From Meiothermus sp. Pnk-1 (GTDB lineage: Bacteria > Deinococcota > Deinococci > Deinococcales > Thermaceae): a DNA stretch of 49,236 bases. Positions 4,807 to 12,836 of this stretch are shown here, piece by piece. Under the pieces are notes generated by a model, which saw nothing but the letters and a program-made list of their open reading frames with translations, made no database searches and was not told the origin of the DNA. The position numbers were made by a program, and so were the translations under genes. The stretch spans positions 1 through 49,236 of the forward strand of contig NZ_QKOB01000015.1 of assembly GCF_003226535.1 (NCBI RefSeq), given 5' to 3'. Every line of letters starts with the position of its first letter. Positions within the stretch are counted from its first letter, which is position 1.

Positions 4807-7155
4807 TCACCTGCGGATCGCGTACCCCGCTGCCTCGACGGCCCGGATCACGTTCTGCATGTAGCCGTCGGTCTCGGCGTCGGTGAGGGTGCGCTCCGGG
4901 TGGCGGAAGCTGAGGTGGAAGGCCAGGCTCTTCTGGCCGGGCTCGAGCGGGCTGCCCCGGTACACGTCGAAGACCTGCAGGGCCTCGAGGTACTCGCCGG
5001 CGCTCTCGCGCAGGATGCGCTCGACCTCGCCGTAGGGCACCGCCTCGGGCACCACCACCGCCAGGTCACGCAGGGAAGCCGGGTACTTGGCCACGTCCTT
5101 GAAGGCTGTCTTGGCCTTGGGGAGGGGCAGCTCGAGCTCGACCAGATAGGTCGTAGGCAGCTCGGCCTGGGCCGCGATGGCCGGGTGCAACTGCCCGATG
5201 GAGCCCACCTTCCGCCCGTTCCAGTACACCGCGCCCGAGACGCCCGGGTGCAGGTGGGCAAAGCCCTCCTGCTCGACCCGTAGCGTGGCCCCCAGGTGCG
5301 CGGCGGTGCTCTCCAACAGCCCCTTGAGCGCGTAGAAGCTGCCCGCGAGCCCCGGCTGCCACAACCCCGGCACCGCCTCGCCCGAGAGCAGCATCCCCAG
5401 CCGGGCGGTCTCGGTCTGGTTGAATACGTTACCGATCTCGAAGAGCAGGAAGGGGCCTTCCTCGCCCTGGGCGAGGTTGAGCTCGAGGTTGCGCAGCAGG
5501 CCCGGATAGATGGCGGTGCGCAAATGGGTTCGGTCTGAAGCCTGGGGGTTGGCCAGGGCCACGGTGGGCGCGGGGGCTCGGTACTTGGCCAGCTCTTCCG
5601 GACTGCTCCAGGAGTAGTTGACCACTTCCTGAAAGCCCAGGCCTACCAGCACGCGCTTGAGTTGCTCCTTGGCCTCATAAGGCTCGTCCACGCCCAGGTT
5701 GTCGGGGGCGGGGAAGAAGGCGGGAAGGGTGACGGGAATCTTGTCGTAGCCGATGATCCGGGCCACTTCCTCGACCAGGTCCTCCGCGATCTCGATGTCC
5801 ATGCGGTAGCTGGGAGGCGTGACCTGGTAGGGCTCCGCCTCGCCTACCACCTGGAAGCCCAGGCGCTTGAGGGCAGCCAACTGTTCGTCCTCGGCGAAGC
5901 TCGCGCCGATCAGTTGGTTGGCCTGACTGGGACGGAAGGCGATGGGCCTGGGGGGCTGGGTGTGGTTGAGGTCGAGGTGTTCCTCGGCCACCAGAGCTCC
6001 CTCGCCTTGCCACTGCTGTACCAGCTCCATGAAGCGCAGGGCGGAGCGCACCTGTCCGTCGGGGTCCACCCCGCGCTCGAAGCGGTAGCTGGCTTCGGTC
6101 TTGAGCCCCTGGCGCTTGGCGGTGCGCCGGATGGAGACCGGGTCGAAGTGGGCGACCTCGAGCGCGACCTCGGTGGTGTCCTCGCGCACCTCGCTGCGCG
6201 CCCCGCCCATCACGCCCGCGATGCCCTCGGGGAGGCTCTGACCCCCCTGCTCGACGGTGATGAGCAGGTCGCGCTCGTCGAACTCGCGCTCCACCCCGTC
6301 GAGCGTGACCAGCTTTTCGCCTCTCCGGGCCCGCCGCACCCGGATGCCCTCGCCGATGAAGCGGGCGTCGTAGGCGTGAAGGGGATTGCCCAGCTCGAGC
6401 ATGGTGTAGTTGGTCGCGTCCACCACCAGGCTGATGGGGCGCATCCCGGCGGCATACAGGCGGCGCTGGACGACGAGGGGGGAGGGGGTGTTCCGAATCC
6501 CTTGGGCGTACCAGAGCGTGAAGCGGTCGCAGCCTGTAGGATCGTCGATCCAGACCCGGAAGGGGAGAGGGATGGAAGCGGTTTTGGGTCTGGGGTCGGG
6601 GTGGATCAGCGTCATGCCCAGCGCAGCCAGGTCGCGGGCCGTGCCATAAACCGAGAGCATGTCGGCGCGGTTGGGGGTGATCTCGAGCTCGATCACCCAA
6701 TCCTCGGACCAGGCCTCGGCCAGGGACGTGCCGGGGGGCAGCGCGCCGGCGGGGAGTTCCATCAGCCCGGCGGCATACTCGCCCACCGCCAGTTCCTTGG
6801 CCGAAAGGGCCATGCCGTAAGACTCGCGGCCCTGGATCTTCCTCACCGCAATCTCGAGGCCTCCCGGCAATACCGCTCCCGGCAGGGCCAGCGCCACCCC
6901 CATCCCCGCCCTGGCGTTGGGCGCGCCCGAGATCACCTGCACCTCTCGCCCCGCGTCGAGGATGAGCTTTCTCACCTCGAGGCCGGGAATCTCCTCCACC
7001 GAGAGCACCCTGGCGAACACCACCCTACGGTGAGGAGCGCTTAGGCGCTCGATGGCCTCGGTCTCGTGCCCCAGCCCGGCGAGCAATTCCTCCAGCCGCT
7101 CGGGTTTGGGTGCGTCGGGCAAGAACTCTTTGAGCCAGCTATAGACGATTCGCAT
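4807..7155 (-). CDS. pheT: Phenylalanine--tRNA ligase beta subunit
   Basis: PheT pairs with PheS in an (alpha-beta)2 enzyme that charges tRNA-Phe. The 782-residue length matches Thermus PheT. The N-terminal part MRIVYSWLKEFL followed by a tRNA-binding (EMAP-like) domain, a central B3/B4 editing domain with ITPNRADMLSVYGTARDLA, B5 repeats, and a C-terminal FDX-ACB domain (about residues 690-782, containing PASLRDLAVVVPE and SLAFHLSFRHPERTLTD) can be followed in order. The ATG at 7155 has a GGAGG site 6 nt upstream. An upstream in-frame start at 7254 would add 33 residues read from the repeat element, so it is rejected. It is presumably cotranscribed with pheS across a 221-nt gap. Confidence 0.97.
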   Translation of the reverse strand: MRIVYSWLKEFLPDAPKPERLEELLAGLGHETEAIERLSAPHRRVVFARVLSVEEIPGLEVRKLILDAGREVQVISGAPNARAGMGVALALPGAVLPGGLEIAVRKIQGRESYGMALSAKELAVGEYAAGLMELPAGALPPGTSLAEAWSEDWVIELEITPNRADMLSVYGTARDLAALGMTLIHPDPRPKTASIPLPFRVWIDDPTGCDRFTLWYAQGIRNTPSPLVVQRRLYAAGMRPISLVVDATNYTMLELGNPLHAYDARFIGEGIRVRRARRGEKLVTLDGVEREFDERDLLITVEQGGQSLPEGIAGVMGGARSEVREDTTEVALEVAHFDPVSIRRTAKRQGLKTEASYRFERGVDPDGQVRSALRFMELVQQWQGEGALVAEEHLDLNHTQPPRPIAFRPSQANQLIGASFAEDEQLAALKRLGFQVVGEAEPYQVTPPSYRMDIEIAEDLVEEVARIIGYDKIPVTLPAFFPAPDNLGVDEPYEAKEQLKRVLVGLGFQEVVNYSWSSPEELAKYRAPAPTVALANPQASDRTHLRTAIYPGLLRNLELNLAQGEEGPFLLFEIGNVFNQTETARLGMLLSGEAVPGLWQPGLAGSFYALKGLLESTAAHLGATLRVEQEGFAHLHPGVSGAVYWNGRKVGSIGQLHPAIAAQAELPTTYLVELELPLPKAKTAFKDVAKYPASLRDLAVVVPEAVPYGEVERILRESAGEYLEALQVFDVYRGSPLEPGQKSLAFHLSFRHPERTLTDAETDGYMQNVIRAVEAAGYAIRR

Positions 7156-7206
7156 TTGCAACCTCCGGTTGCGCTGAACGCCCGGCGCAAAACGCGACTT
7201 GCGTCG

Positions 7207-7344
7207 TACGTCGTACGCTAAACGCTGAGGACGATCCCCTATCGGGACGAGCAAAGCTCGTACACCTAGGGGACGATCCCCTGTCGGGACGGGCTACGCC
7301 TATACACCCGACGGGTCGGCCCCCTTCGTTCGGCGTACGACGTA
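7207..7344. repeat. Intergenic repeat element between pheS and pheT
   Basis: The element is bounded by 18-bp inverted arms: 7207-7224 (TACGTCGTACGCTAAACG) and 7327-7344 (its complement at 16 of 18 positions). Inside are two imperfect tandem units of about 42 bp, each beginning with a near-identical 21-bp block (7229-7249 and 7271-7291, one mismatch). The first unit also contains a GAGC-AAA-GCTC mini-hairpin. The core GTCGTACGC recurs at about 32081-32089. This looks like a REP- or MITE-like family. Copy number is unknown. Confidence 0.6.
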
Positions 7345-7376
7345 GGACGTAGGACATGCGATCAGCACAAATCAAG

Positions 7377-8483
<1,107 letters not shown>

Positions 8484-8515
8484 CTATCAAGTAAGCCGCC
8501 TCCTACGCTCTTCGC

Positions 8516-8571
8516 AAAAGCTACGGGCGGCACAGGGCCGCCCGCGAGAGCCAAAGGGCACTCCCGCAGGC
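8516..8571 (-). promoter_or_regulatory. pheS attenuator (mutually exclusive antiterminator and terminator)
   Basis: Two hairpins compete on the minus-strand RNA. The antiterminator pairs GCCTGCGGGAG (8561-8571) with CTCTCGCGGGC (8540-8550): 11 bp including two G-U pairs, with a 10-nt loop. The terminator pairs CGGGCGGC (8537-8544) with GCCGCCCG (8524-8531): 8 bp with a 5-nt loop, followed by TAGCTTTT. They share 8540-8544, so only one can form. The antiterminator 5' arm begins at the last base of the leader-peptide stop codon. A ribosome reaching the stop would cover it and let the terminator form. A ribosome stalled at the Phe codons would leave it free. The T-tract is short. Confidence 0.75.
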
Positions 8572-8597
8572 TACCTAAAAAACCACCTCCCGCGCAT
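8571..8597 (-). CDS. Predicted pheS leader peptide with tandem Phe codons
   Basis: This micro-ORF of eight codons plus TAG reads MRGRWFFR. It lies between the pheS promoter and the overlapping hairpins of the pheST leader. Codons 6 and 7 are adjacent TTT Phe codons. From the -10 box, transcription should start about 3 nt before the ATG, so translation would be leaderless. It is far too short for family comparison. The assignment rests on promoter position, Phe codons, and a stop codon that overlaps the antiterminator arm. An in-frame ATG at 8606 touches the -10 box and should not be transcribed. Confidence 0.72.
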   Translation of the reverse strand: MRGRWFFR

Positions 8598-8606
8598 ATT
8601 GGCCAT

Positions 8607-8635
8607 AGTTTACCGGCGAGCCCCCTAAAGCTCAA
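8607..8635 (-). promoter_or_regulatory. pheST promoter
   Basis: On the minus strand, TTGAGC (8630-8635) and TAAACT (8607-8612) are spaced by exactly 17 bp. The predicted start is near 8600, giving a leader of about 160 nt before pheS. Confidence 0.8.
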
Positions 8636-10211: not shown

Positions 10212-12836
10212 TTACACCTCGTCTTTGGCTAGGTCGTTGAAGCGCACGTGCTGGGCGTGGAACTGGAGTTCGGCCACGCCGGTGGGACCGTTGCGTTGTT
10301 TGCCCACGATGATCTCGGCAATCCCAGCCTTCTCGGAGTGGGGGTTGTAGTAGTCGTCGCGGTAGATGAACATCACCAAGTCGGCGTCTTGCTCGATAGA
10401 GTTGTGTACGACGATGTTGTTGGCGACGAAGTTGTGCGGGCCGGGGACCGTGAGGTCGAAGACCTCTTCCTCCCCGGCCGCCTCGACGGACACCACTTTG
10501 TCCCAGTAGATGTCACTGCTGGCAATGCGCTCGAGCGCTTGCGACCCCGGGGCCTTCGCCATCCGCAGGGCGCGCTCGCGGCTCGGGTTTTGCTTGAAGA
10601 GGGTCGTGCCTGAGTAGGCCGTGCCCAGGGCCCGGTGTAATTCCCGGTGGGAAAGGCCCGAGACCGCCAGGTCGGCCCGCGTGGGGTGCAGCCACAGCTC
10701 GAGCGGGATCACGTCCCGGTTGGTGTTTTCCGGGCGGGCCTCTAGGTAAGCCTCGACCTGCGATAAGGCCTGGCGCTTGTAGCTGCCCACAGCCCCGACC
10801 TCGCGCGCGAAGCGCAACAGGCTGGAGCGGCCGCTGACGATGACGTGGAACTGGTCGCGCCCCCTGCCCTTCTGCGGCAGGCGCTTGAGCCGGGAGTTGA
10901 TCCCCAGGTGCAGCAGCAGGGTTTGCACGTCCAGAGCTAACCGCTCGCTGCTGCTGGCGTAGTAGATGGCGGGGTAGGGGGACTTGCCCTGCCGCAGGAG
11001 GACGCAGCCGTCTGTGGACCACAGGTGCCGCAGAAAGCGGGCGATCGCGGGAGCAGGCTGGGTGAACACCAACTCGGGGACTCGCTTCTCGTGAGAACGC
11101 AAGCCCCACACCCCTAACGCCTCGAGCCACTCTGCGACCGGGTTGCGCCTGCTCCGCCCCAGCCGCTGCGCCGCGCTCAGGTAGACCTGCAACCACCTCC
11201 GCTCGGGCTTGACCCTAGGGACGATGGCTTCGTTGAACACCGCTCGAGCCAAGTCGGCCACGGTTTGCGCCAGGTCGGGCTCGCGGGTGGTGTACTGCAG
11301 GGCATGGCGTGGCAGGGTGCAGCCATCACCGATCAGGTGCCCCAGCAGGGCTAGCTCCTCGTCGCGGAGGCGTTGCCCCTGGGAGGAGGCCAGTTTCCGC
11401 GGCAGAGCCAGGTAATCACCCACGGCGAGCTGGTCCAGCCGCTTCCAGCCCTGCGGGGTGAGGAACTGGTGGTTGGCCGTCGCGCGGACGCGGCGTCCGA
11501 GCCGGGTGGTGAGGGCGAACACCGGCTTTACGCCGGTGGAGAAGGCCCGGCTCACCCAGGCGGGCTTGAGCCTTTGGGTGGTCTCGTCGAGCGCGAGCAC
11601 CTCGAAACCGCTCTTCCCAATGAGTTCACGGATGGGCTGCCTCGAGCCGTCGGCCAATTGCACCAGGGTGTCGCCGGTGAGGCAGCCCGACTCCCTCAGG
11701 TCGGAGAGCATGGGGCGTTTGTTGGGGCGGGCTTCCACCGCCCGCGAGAGCTGGGAGAGGGCGATTACCGGCACGTTGAGTTCGCGGGCCAGCCCCTTGA
11801 GGCCACGCGAAATCGCTGCGATTTCCTGTTGGCGGTTCTCTCCACCTCCGTTGCGGCTCGAGGTGGGGCCGGACATCAATTGCAGGTAGTCGATCACGAT
11901 CAGCCCCAGCTTTTGCTGGCTCATCAAACGCCGCGCCCGGCTCCTTAGCTCCATCAGGGTCATGTCGGAGGTGTCGTCGATGAGGATGGGGGCCTCGGCG
12001 ATACGCCCGGCTACGTCTACCAAGCGCGAGAAGTCCCGGTCGGTGAGCTGGCCCTGCCGCAGCCGGTTCATGTCGATACGCGCCTCCGAGCACATCATGC
12101 GGGTGACGAGCTGCACGGCGGGCATCTCCAGGGAGAAGATCGCTACCCCGATGTTCTCGCGCAGGGCCACGTTTTGCGCGATGGTTAGGGCGAAGGCAGT
12201 CTTACCCATGGAGGGCCTGGCAGCGATGATATTCAAGGATCCCGGCGTGAACCCCCCGATCATCAGGTCGAGCTCACGGAACCCGCTGCGTAGCCCGGTG
12301 GTAGCCCCTTGGTTTTCATAAAGCTGCTGGATGTGCTCGAAGGTCTCGTGCACCAGCTCGCGCATGCTTTGGAACTCGGTTTTGCTGCCCGCCAGGGCCA
12401 CCTCGAGCACCCTTCGCCCGGCGCCATCCAGGATCTCCTCCAGGCTACCCGACTCCTCGTAGGCCATCTTCATGGCTTCCCCGGCGGCTTCGATCAGGCG
12501 GCGCAGGGTCCACTTCTCTGCCACGATGCGCGCGTAGTATTCGGCATAGGCTGCGGTGGGGGTATTCTCCGAGAGCCCTACCAGATACGAGAGGCCTCCG
12601 GCTACATCGAGCTCTCCCCGGGTGGCGAGTTCGTTGGAGAGCGTCACCAGATCTACCGGTTCGCCCCGCAGGCGAAGTTGCTCCATGCAGCTCCAGATCT
12701 TGCGGTGGCCCTCCTTGTAAAAAGACTCAGCGGTGAGGATGCCCTCGAGCCGGTCCAGCACCTCGCTGTCCAGCAACACCGAGCCCAGCACGCTGGCCTC
12801 GGCTTCAAGGTTGTGAGGAGGGATGCGACCTTCCAT
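10212..12836 (-). CDS. dnaB: Replicative DNA helicase DnaB with an in-frame intein
   Basis: DnaB is the hexameric 5'-3' helicase of the replication fork. The 874-residue precursor has the DnaB N-terminal domain (residues 5-105, starting PPHNLEAEASVLGS). A RecA-like core follows, with Walker A ARPSMGKT at 206-213, Walker B LIVIDYLQLM (312-321), and the segment leading into the conserved SDLRESG/SIEQDAD site. The intein is inserted there at residues 385-812; the C-extein (813-874) resumes SIEQDADLVMFIYRDDYY. Spliced DnaB would be 446 residues, the normal size. The start codon at 12836 gives the expected N-terminus. The gene converges on the TPR gene. Confidence 0.96.
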   Translation of the reverse strand: MEGRIPPHNLEAEASVLGSVLLDSEVLDRLEGILTAESFYKEGHRKIWSCMEQLRLRGEPVDLVTLSNELATRGELDVAGGLSYLVGLSENTPTAAYAEYYARIVAEKWTLRRLIEAAGEAMKMAYEESGSLEEILDGAGRRVLEVALAGSKTEFQSMRELVHETFEHIQQLYENQGATTGLRSGFRELDLMIGGFTPGSLNIIAARPSMGKTAFALTIAQNVALRENIGVAIFSLEMPAVQLVTRMMCSEARIDMNRLRQGQLTDRDFSRLVDVAGRIAEAPILIDDTSDMTLMELRSRARRLMSQQKLGLIVIDYLQLMSGPTSSRNGGGENRQQEIAAISRGLKGLARELNVPVIALSQLSRAVEARPNKRPMLSDLRESGCLTGDTLVQLADGSRQPIRELIGKSGFEVLALDETTQRLKPAWVSRAFSTGVKPVFALTTRLGRRVRATANHQFLTPQGWKRLDQLAVGDYLALPRKLASSQGQRLRDEELALLGHLIGDGCTLPRHALQYTTREPDLAQTVADLARAVFNEAIVPRVKPERRWLQVYLSAAQRLGRSRRNPVAEWLEALGVWGLRSHEKRVPELVFTQPAPAIARFLRHLWSTDGCVLLRQGKSPYPAIYYASSSERLALDVQTLLLHLGINSRLKRLPQKGRGRDQFHVIVSGRSSLLRFAREVGAVGSYKRQALSQVEAYLEARPENTNRDVIPLELWLHPTRADLAVSGLSHRELHRALGTAYSGTTLFKQNPSRERALRMAKAPGSQALERIASSDIYWDKVVSVEAAGEEEVFDLTVPGPHNFVANNIVVHNSIEQDADLVMFIYRDDYYNPHSEKAGIAEIIVGKQRNGPTGVAELQFHAQHVRFNDLAKDEV
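10401..11684 (-). mobile_element. DnaB intein with LAGLIDADG homing endonuclease domain
   Basis: This 428-residue intein (precursor residues 385-812) sits between RESG and SIEQ, the insertion site also used by the known Rhodothermus and Synechocystis DnaB inteins. Splicing motifs look intact: Cys1 in CLTGDTLV, block B TANH (453-456), C-terminal blocks around VFDLTVPGPHNFVAN, and the final His811-Asn812 followed by the +1 Ser. Two LAGLIDADG-like helices are visible, LLGHLIGDG (497-505) and FLRHLWSTDG (601-610), each with an acidic residue, so the endonuclease may still be active. Boundary codons were checked: TGC at 11682-11684 and AAC at 10401-10403. Confidence 0.95.

Follow-up and report, generated by a model that had tools for sequence, protein, structure and literature searches.

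The stretch of Meiothermus sp. Pnk-1 DNA analyzed here (49,236 nucleotides in full, hereafter the window) carries pheS and pheT, the genes for the α and β subunits of phenylalanine–tRNA ligase, on its minus strand. Upstream of pheS lie a promoter, a short open reading frame (ORF) encoding MRGRWFFR, and two overlapping hairpins, H1 and H2. The features of this region are as follows.

8630..8635, minus strand: −35 hexamer TTGAGC, from sequence, 17 nt from the −10 hexamer
8607..8612, minus strand: −10 hexamer TAAACT, from sequence, 9 nt 5′ of the leader ATG
8571..8597, minus strand: leader ORF MRGRWFFR, ATG CGC GGG AGG TGG TTT TTT AGG TAG
8583..8587, minus strand: region 1, GGTGG, complement of CCGCC in the 3′ arm (8526-8530) of the proposed terminator
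8577..8582, minus strand: adjacent Phe codons TTT TTT, the proposed regulatory codons; Phe occurs in all leaders
8573-8571, minus strand: leader stop codon TAG, from sequence
8540..8571, minus strand: H1, 12-pair hairpin from the stop codon, from pairing and covariation; proposed sensor/antiterminator
8524..8544, minus strand: H2, 8-bp GC hairpin, from folding; proposed intrinsic terminator
8516..8519, minus strand: TTTT, short U-run of the proposed terminator, from T enrichment in relatives
8446..8450, minus strand: Shine-Dalgarno sequence GGAGG of pheS, from sequence, 9 nt 5′ of the pheS ATG
7377..8441, minus strand: pheS, phenylalanine–tRNA ligase α subunit (TIGR00468, 3e-87, over the cut-off)
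4807..7155, minus strand: pheT, β subunit (TIGR00472, 8e-198)

The start of pheT is probably the ATG at 7155, which follows a GGAGG; the longest ORF extends to 7254. The pheS-pheT gap (∼220 nt, window 7156-7376) is unusual for the interior of an operon and contains repeated motifs (ACGTCGTACG / GTACGACGTACGAC, and GGGGATCGTCC twice), some of which are common to locus L004. Elsewhere in the window, dnaB (10212-12836, 874 amino acids) matches replicative helicase in two segments separated by an intein N-terminal splicing region, so this gene probably contains an intein.

An earlier note on this DNA had described a promoter, TTGAGC-17-TAAACT, followed by an eight-codon ORF, MRGRWFFR, with adjacent Phe codons. 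The promoter is present at 8635-8607 of the minus strand, and the ORF agrees with that description to the base; an alternative in-frame ATG at 8606 would add MAN to the leader peptide. Short ORFs of 5–14 amino acids that begin 6–12 nt after a TANNNT box occur 15 times in the 49-kb window, and MRGRWFFR is the only one with an FF. The motif GGYGGTTTTTTRGNTAG is present in a single copy in the organism's own 3.5-Mb genome.

H1 is formed by the pairing of 8571-8560 with 8551-8540 and H2 by the pairing of 8544-8537 with 8531-8524. The first of these had been reported as an 11-bp hairpin at 8540-8571; its coordinates hold, but it has 12 pairs when G-U is counted. The GC-rich 8-bp hairpin at 8524-8544 was recovered as described, as were the five bases common to both hairpins (8540-8544) and the reach of the stop codon into the first hairpin arm, where G8571 of the UAG is the first paired base of H1. 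Taken singly, H1 and H2 are each more stable than 200 of 200 shuffled sequences (z about −3.4), and the folding energy of the whole leader is unexceptional compared with shuffles (z −1.2). The assertion that the two hairpins cannot coexist was too strong, as the minimum free energy structure of 8572-8506 consists of H2 plus a trimmed, 8-bp H1, which sheds 4 basal pairs and stands beside H2.

For comparison, pheS upstream regions were taken from 21 non-Thermus Thermaceae, 12 sister-family, and ∼40 more distant genomes; the labels Thermus, Marinithermaceae-like (the sister family), and Trueperaceae-like were assigned here from kinship and protein identity, and one Thermaceae genome (G019) was left out because its pheS is truncated where the contig stops. 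In each of the 21 non-Thermus Thermaceae and 12 Marinithermaceae-like genomes, pheS is preceded by a −10 box, a short Phe ORF, H1, and a GC-rich H2. The leader frame, the FF, and the stop codon are kept in each of the 21 Thermaceae with an intact upstream region, and the 12 Marinithermaceae-like leaders contain FF or FFF. Across both families, the ORFs have 7–10 codons with 2–3 tandem Phe codons. The peptides themselves vary (MRGRWFFR, MWAWRWFFR, MSGRWFFG, MRRGGRFFR, MRAYGFFFSY, MAAFFFP, MRGLFFG), and despite this variation none lacks the run of Phe codons, the stop codon, or the hairpins that follow. Phe is the sole residue other than the start that is present in all leaders of the two families (34/34), a count that is partly built in, as FF was a requirement when leaders were sought in these families; even so, each genome yielded a single candidate, and the architecture was the same throughout. 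The codon TTT accounts for 62 of 75 Phe codons in the leaders; in pheS, pheT, and dnaB of the window it accounts for 7 of 72, the other 65 being TTC. This preference of the leaders for the rare TTT codon fits a stall site.

A covariance model was built from the 19 distinct Thermaceae leaders and used to search 111 genomes. It gave one strong match per non-Thermus Thermaceae genome (E 1e-17 to 1e-26), always before pheS. Although it was not trained on the sister family, the model also matched pheS leaders there, with E values of 0.0006–0.002 in four genomes (G064, G061, G059, and G060) and 0.001 in G068, and gave weaker matches at the pheS leaders of G066, G070, G071, and G062. Leader copies before genes other than pheS were not found at a convincing E value in the 111 genomes. 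The single pheS-adjacent match per genome and the lack of another strong locus indicate specificity of the element for pheS, and, judged from these sequences, the leaders found in the two families are probably homologous.

H1 covaries in both families. In Thermaceae, 99.5% of H1 cells are paired, and both the covariation score and the count of cells in which both sides have changed exceed those of all 500 shuffles; two-sided changes are found in one pair only, and several other pairs vary one-sidedly. In the sister family, 99.0% of the cells of H1 and H2 are paired, three pairs have two-sided changes, and the score again exceeds that of all shuffles. The H2 core is invariant in Thermaceae, which means that covariation cannot test the core; its basal pair (alignment columns 59/80) is U-A, C-G, or U-G and is unpaired in five sequences. 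Hairpins like H1 are found at the same place in more distant families, with very different sequences and matching changes; the eight distant-family rows aligned were chosen for a common register, so that their 100% pairing is by construction. In unpicked leaders, a stem of 7 bp or more whose base lies 1–7 nt past the first base of the stop codon is present in 21 of 21 Thermaceae, 12 of 12 sister-family, and 18 of 26 distant leaders, compared with 6.5, 3.2, and 3.9 expected from shuffles.

The position of the promoter relative to the ORF is also conserved. In all 33 leaders (21 Thermaceae and 12 Marinithermaceae-like; the second start codon was counted for the window and L002 leaders), the ORF begins 6–12 nt after the end of a TANNNT box, and a −35 element, TTGA(C/G)N, at a spacing of 17–18 nt is kept in 19 of the 21 Thermaceae relatives. 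If transcription starts ∼7 nt past the −10 box, this distance leaves an untranslated leader of 0–5 nt. We infer the transcription start from this spacing, and on that placement the leader ORF is probably leaderless or nearly so, with translation at or near the mRNA 5′ end. The earlier reading had put the ORF close to the predicted start and had left unfollowed the probable leaderless start, which is kept in all 33 leaders.

We then asked how a ribosome on the leader ORF would affect the two hairpins, setting its leading edge 13 nt from where the A-site codon begins. In 33 of 33 leaders, 6–10 bp of H1 would survive when the A site holds the last Phe codon, against 0–4 bp when the ribosome has reached the stop. 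The predicted probability of H1 falls accordingly from 0.2–1.0 with the ribosome at the Phe codons to 0–0.25 with the ribosome at the stop. The most general statement supported by these data is that the stop-codon hairpin H1 would read the position of the ribosome. The response of H2 is different. In a naked-RNA equilibrium, its probability in Thermaceae is 0.78–1.0 with the ribosome at Phe and 0.94–1.0 with the ribosome at the stop, and in the Marinithermaceae-like family H2 is nearly always favored. Thus, the proposal that ribosomes at the Phe codons and at the stop would give opposite folds stands for H1, which is switched on and off, but not for H2, which is favored in both states; likewise, the two-state switch has the H1 geometry behind it in all 33 leaders, but naked RNA holds H1 and H2 together. 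Since H2 is favored in both ribosome states, such a switch must rely on co-transcriptional timing or on the polymerase itself. The hairpins overlap by 3–6 nt in Thermaceae versus 0–1 nt in the Marinithermaceae-like family; within RNA polymerase, where termination is driven by closure of the stem's foot, an overlap at that point of the terminator may still have an effect.

Without a ribosome, the predicted probability of H2 is 0–0.06 in 20 of the 21 Thermaceae leaders and 0.2 in the remaining one. The RNAalifold consensus for Thermaceae pairs GGYGG, just 5′ of the Phe codons, with the terminator CCGCC around a full H1, a pairing that would suppress H2 without a ribosome and that the earlier account of the fold had left unfollowed. 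This region 1:4 pairing is possible in 19 of 19 distinct sequences (through U-G in 17 and C-G in 2), with the Y being T, in a Trp codon, in 17 and C, in an Arg codon, in 2. Two-sided covariation of region 1:4 was not found among the 19 distinct Thermaceae leaders, and we keep the pairing as a proposal from the modeled folds. A protector (1:2) hairpin was not found in the Thermaceae leaders.

The sequence that follows H2 is enriched in T. At positions +5 to +8 after the stem, the T frequency in the 21 Thermaceae leaders is 0.57, 0.95, 1.0, and 0.81, respectively, versus a background of 0.23. By E. coli standards this U-run is short and offset, and it is weaker than a canonical one. A scan of the window for canonical terminators gave little above shuffles and so says nothing for or against H2. 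The distance from H2 to the pheS ATG varies from 18 to 83 nt in Thermaceae, and the Shine-Dalgarno sequence is fixed at −9 in 20 of 21; a varying distance together with a fixed Shine-Dalgarno sequence fits termination rather than masking of the Shine-Dalgarno sequence. Many distant-family leaders have canonical U5-8 terminators at the place of H2. On these features, H2 is a candidate intrinsic terminator of the pheST leader. In 14 of the 21 Thermaceae leaders, a −10-like box (TAGACT/TAGGCT/TAGTCT; at 8481-8486 in the window and also noted among loci L004-L021) lies 12–38 nt 3′ of H2 with no obvious −35 element and is possibly a second, constitutive start for pheST.

In the sister-family leaders L111-L122, the first Phe codons (CUUC/UUCU) complement the pheS Shine-Dalgarno GGAG(G), and the RNAalifold pairing between them encloses both H1 and H2.

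Several other explanations for the leader were weighed. The leader might act on translation of pheS, with the leader ribosome altering access to the Shine-Dalgarno sequence, for example through UUCU:GGAG in the Marinithermaceae-like family. RNAalifold pairs UUCU with the Shine-Dalgarno region in the 12 sister-family leaders, H2 there lies just 22–31 nt before the pheS start, and the U-run is weak. The UUCU:GGAG helix, however, has just 4 bp and its changes follow lineages, the UUUUUU of Thermaceae could pair with the Shine-Dalgarno sequence through U-G pairs only, the variable spacing in Thermaceae leaves the Shine-Dalgarno sequence at −9 free, and canonical terminators stand at this place in several relatives from other families. 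We regard control of this kind as unlikely, and masking by the Phe codons in the sister family as weak and group-specific. Less likely again is a switch that depends on translation and not on Phe, in which any ribosome would block region 1 and permit H2, and the absence of a ribosome would give read-through via region 1:4. In its favor, a strong switch in the naked-RNA ensembles is seen only on going from no ribosome (P(H2) ∼0 in almost every Thermaceae leader) to any ribosome, and GGYGG is kept as nucleotides while the amino acid that it encodes changes between Trp and Arg, but it leaves unexplained the presence of 2–3 Phe codons, mostly TTT, at a fixed distance from H1 in families without region 1:4.

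Recoding, in which TTTTTT before a strong hairpin would be a slip site for the ribosome or RNA polymerase and an extended product would be coupled to pheS, is very improbable. The window and several relatives do have T6 followed by a hairpin and an alternative frame open to the pheS start. That frame is nevertheless stopped early in several close relatives (among them L002, L003, L006, L007, and L008), the extension that it would encode lacks conservation, and some leaders have TTC codons or single TTT codons; frameshifting or slippage at TTTTTT is therefore disfavored. The possibility that the ORF and hairpins arose by chance in GC-rich sequence 5′ of the gene and regulate nothing, for which the ordinary whole-leader folding energy could be cited, has next to no probability and is refuted by conservation: both families keep the arrangement in 33 of 33 leaders, each genome has a single copy, the sequences covary, and the window has no second FF ORF of this type. 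Identity with a T-box, the enterobacterial Phe leader, or another Rfam family was ruled out by the lack of a match: the enterobacterial Phe leader model gave none in the window at the gathering score or in the leader region at E values up to 10, and the T-box covariance model gave none.

The anatomy, the conservation, the covariation of H1, the ribosome-edge geometry, and the restriction to pheS are shown by the sequences compared here. The region is a genuine regulatory leader that relatives conserve, and its most likely function is to attenuate pheST in response to Phe, in a short and leaderless form. We consider it probable that a leaderless Phe leader peptide controls pheST through ribosome-mediated attenuation of transcription; we infer the site of termination (H2), the way the control runs, and that H1 acts as the antiterminator. 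In such an attenuator, transcription would start at or a few nucleotides before the leader AUG, so that a ribosome could start on the 5′ end as it emerges. When Phe-tRNA is sufficient, the ribosome would reach the UAG and cover the 5′ arm of H1 with its front edge, H1 would melt, the 5′ arm of H2 would be free, and H2 would form at the U-run and stop RNA polymerase. With too little Phe-tRNA, the ribosome would wait at the Phe codons and H1 would stay whole, taking the bases that close the foot of H2 (the 3–6-nt overlap of Thermaceae), and the polymerase would read on into pheST. In the Marinithermaceae-like leaders, H1 would block the H2 foot by direct abutment, and these juxtaposed hairpins pose the question of whether mere abutment on a terminator stem blocks termination. 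When no ribosome is present, the leader GGUGG would pair with the 3′ arm of the terminator around a full H1, which would make read-through the default in Thermaceae.

The E. coli pheST attenuator has the pheM leader peptide with its Phe codons. The system proposed here resembles it in the operon, the amino acid, the Phe leader peptide, and the succession of a proposed antiterminator and terminator. Unlike in E. coli, the leader ORF has just 7–10 codons and is probably near leaderless, and the proposed antiterminator begins at the stop codon. The enterobacterial design also differs in that read-through without a ribosome is predicted here and that no protector hairpin was found in the Thermaceae leaders. 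The Firmicutes T-box likewise senses tRNA charging 5′ of synthetase genes with a terminator and an antiterminator, but sensing here would be by a ribosome on an ORF. The trpL attenuator transcript of Sinorhizobium meliloti is leaderless. It shares with this system the leader peptide of a transcription attenuator, and differs in controlling a Trp biosynthesis operon in Alphaproteobacteria.

Attenuators are described for pheST of γ-proteobacteria and for trpS and leuS of Streptomyces (PMC1262725). In the ilvBNC leader of Corynebacterium glutamicum, the antiterminator and terminator overlap, as they do here, and their pairs slide without full melting (PMC11857589); that leader differs in having branched-chain amino acid codons and an extra anti-antiterminator hairpin, and it belongs to Actinobacteria. 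The leaderless polycysteine short ORFs of mycobacteria (Canestrari et al. 2020, per PMC9031893; also cited in PMC13236596) are similar as leaderless short ORFs with tandem codons for the sensed amino acid upstream of the genes they control. They differ in sensing cysteine and in acting on downstream translation, and PMC9031893 describes no such two-hairpin terminator. For Deinococcus deserti, the same source puts leaderless mRNAs at up to 60% of genes. Searches of the open full-text literature found no pheST attenuator described for this phylum; the primary D. deserti leaderless-mRNA paper (10.1093/gbe/evu069) might mention related leader peptides. If the reading as an attenuator is true, Phe leader-peptide control of this synthetase operon extends from enterobacteria to a deep, distant phylum, where it takes a very short and probably leaderless form.

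The earlier note had proposed the Phe leader-peptide attenuator of pheST and an alignment of pheS upstream regions from Meiothermus, Thermus, and relatives in support of it. The core of the proposal was supported by conservation in 33 of 33 leaders, with Phe codons and hairpins kept and H1 covarying; what fell away were strict exclusivity of the hairpins and the extension to Thermus, as a Phe leader ORF before pheS is absent from the 24 Thermus genomes (0/24). The Thermus pheS lies a few nucleotides after TATCCT or TATTCT and looks leaderless. The loci without an attenuator are those of Thermus (L022-L030, L141-L150, and L206-L210) and of a neighboring genus (L130/L212), with a pheS box of TATCCT, TATTCT, or TATACT, and on these sequences loss of the attenuator looks to coincide with a leaderless pheS in both.

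Outside the two families, a Trueperaceae-like group and two small families have another common leader peptide (e.g. MRSLLASPFIT, MVNALSPFTRFA, and VTHPGRPDVPFFFR). These distant-family leaders carry SPF or FF peptides and H1-like hairpins, their −10 box is usually 6–8 nt before the start, and they have 1–3 Phe codons, the last of which is 6–9 nt before the stop in 22 of 26. A clear leader before pheS was not seen in a handful of distant genomes. The presence of Phe leaders in distant families as well makes it possible that the pheS Phe leader is ancestral in the sampled phylum, and it may have been lost in Thermus and the next genus (G049). If so, the leader would show how such a switch can persist throughout a phylum and disappear from a single genus. 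The full account, in which a stop-codon hairpin blocks termination by sitting on the terminator foot, through a few overlapping bases or simple abutment and not through a long alternative helix, a leaderless 7–10-codon Phe peptide directs it, read-through is the default without a ribosome, and the system is ancestral and lost in Thermus, is tentative, and we think it less likely than not.

The distant loci L126-L140 and L181-L202 have near-leaderless ORFs before pheS that end in (A)SPF(T/I)xx or FF/FFF, with the DNA motif TTCGCC[AC]TTTA. A hairpin forms at their stop codon, and canonical terminators are present in many. A lone Phe codon, set in a conserved Ser-Pro-Phe context, is common among these leaders, and some also have a small hairpin, GAAGCC..GGCTTC, inside the ORF.
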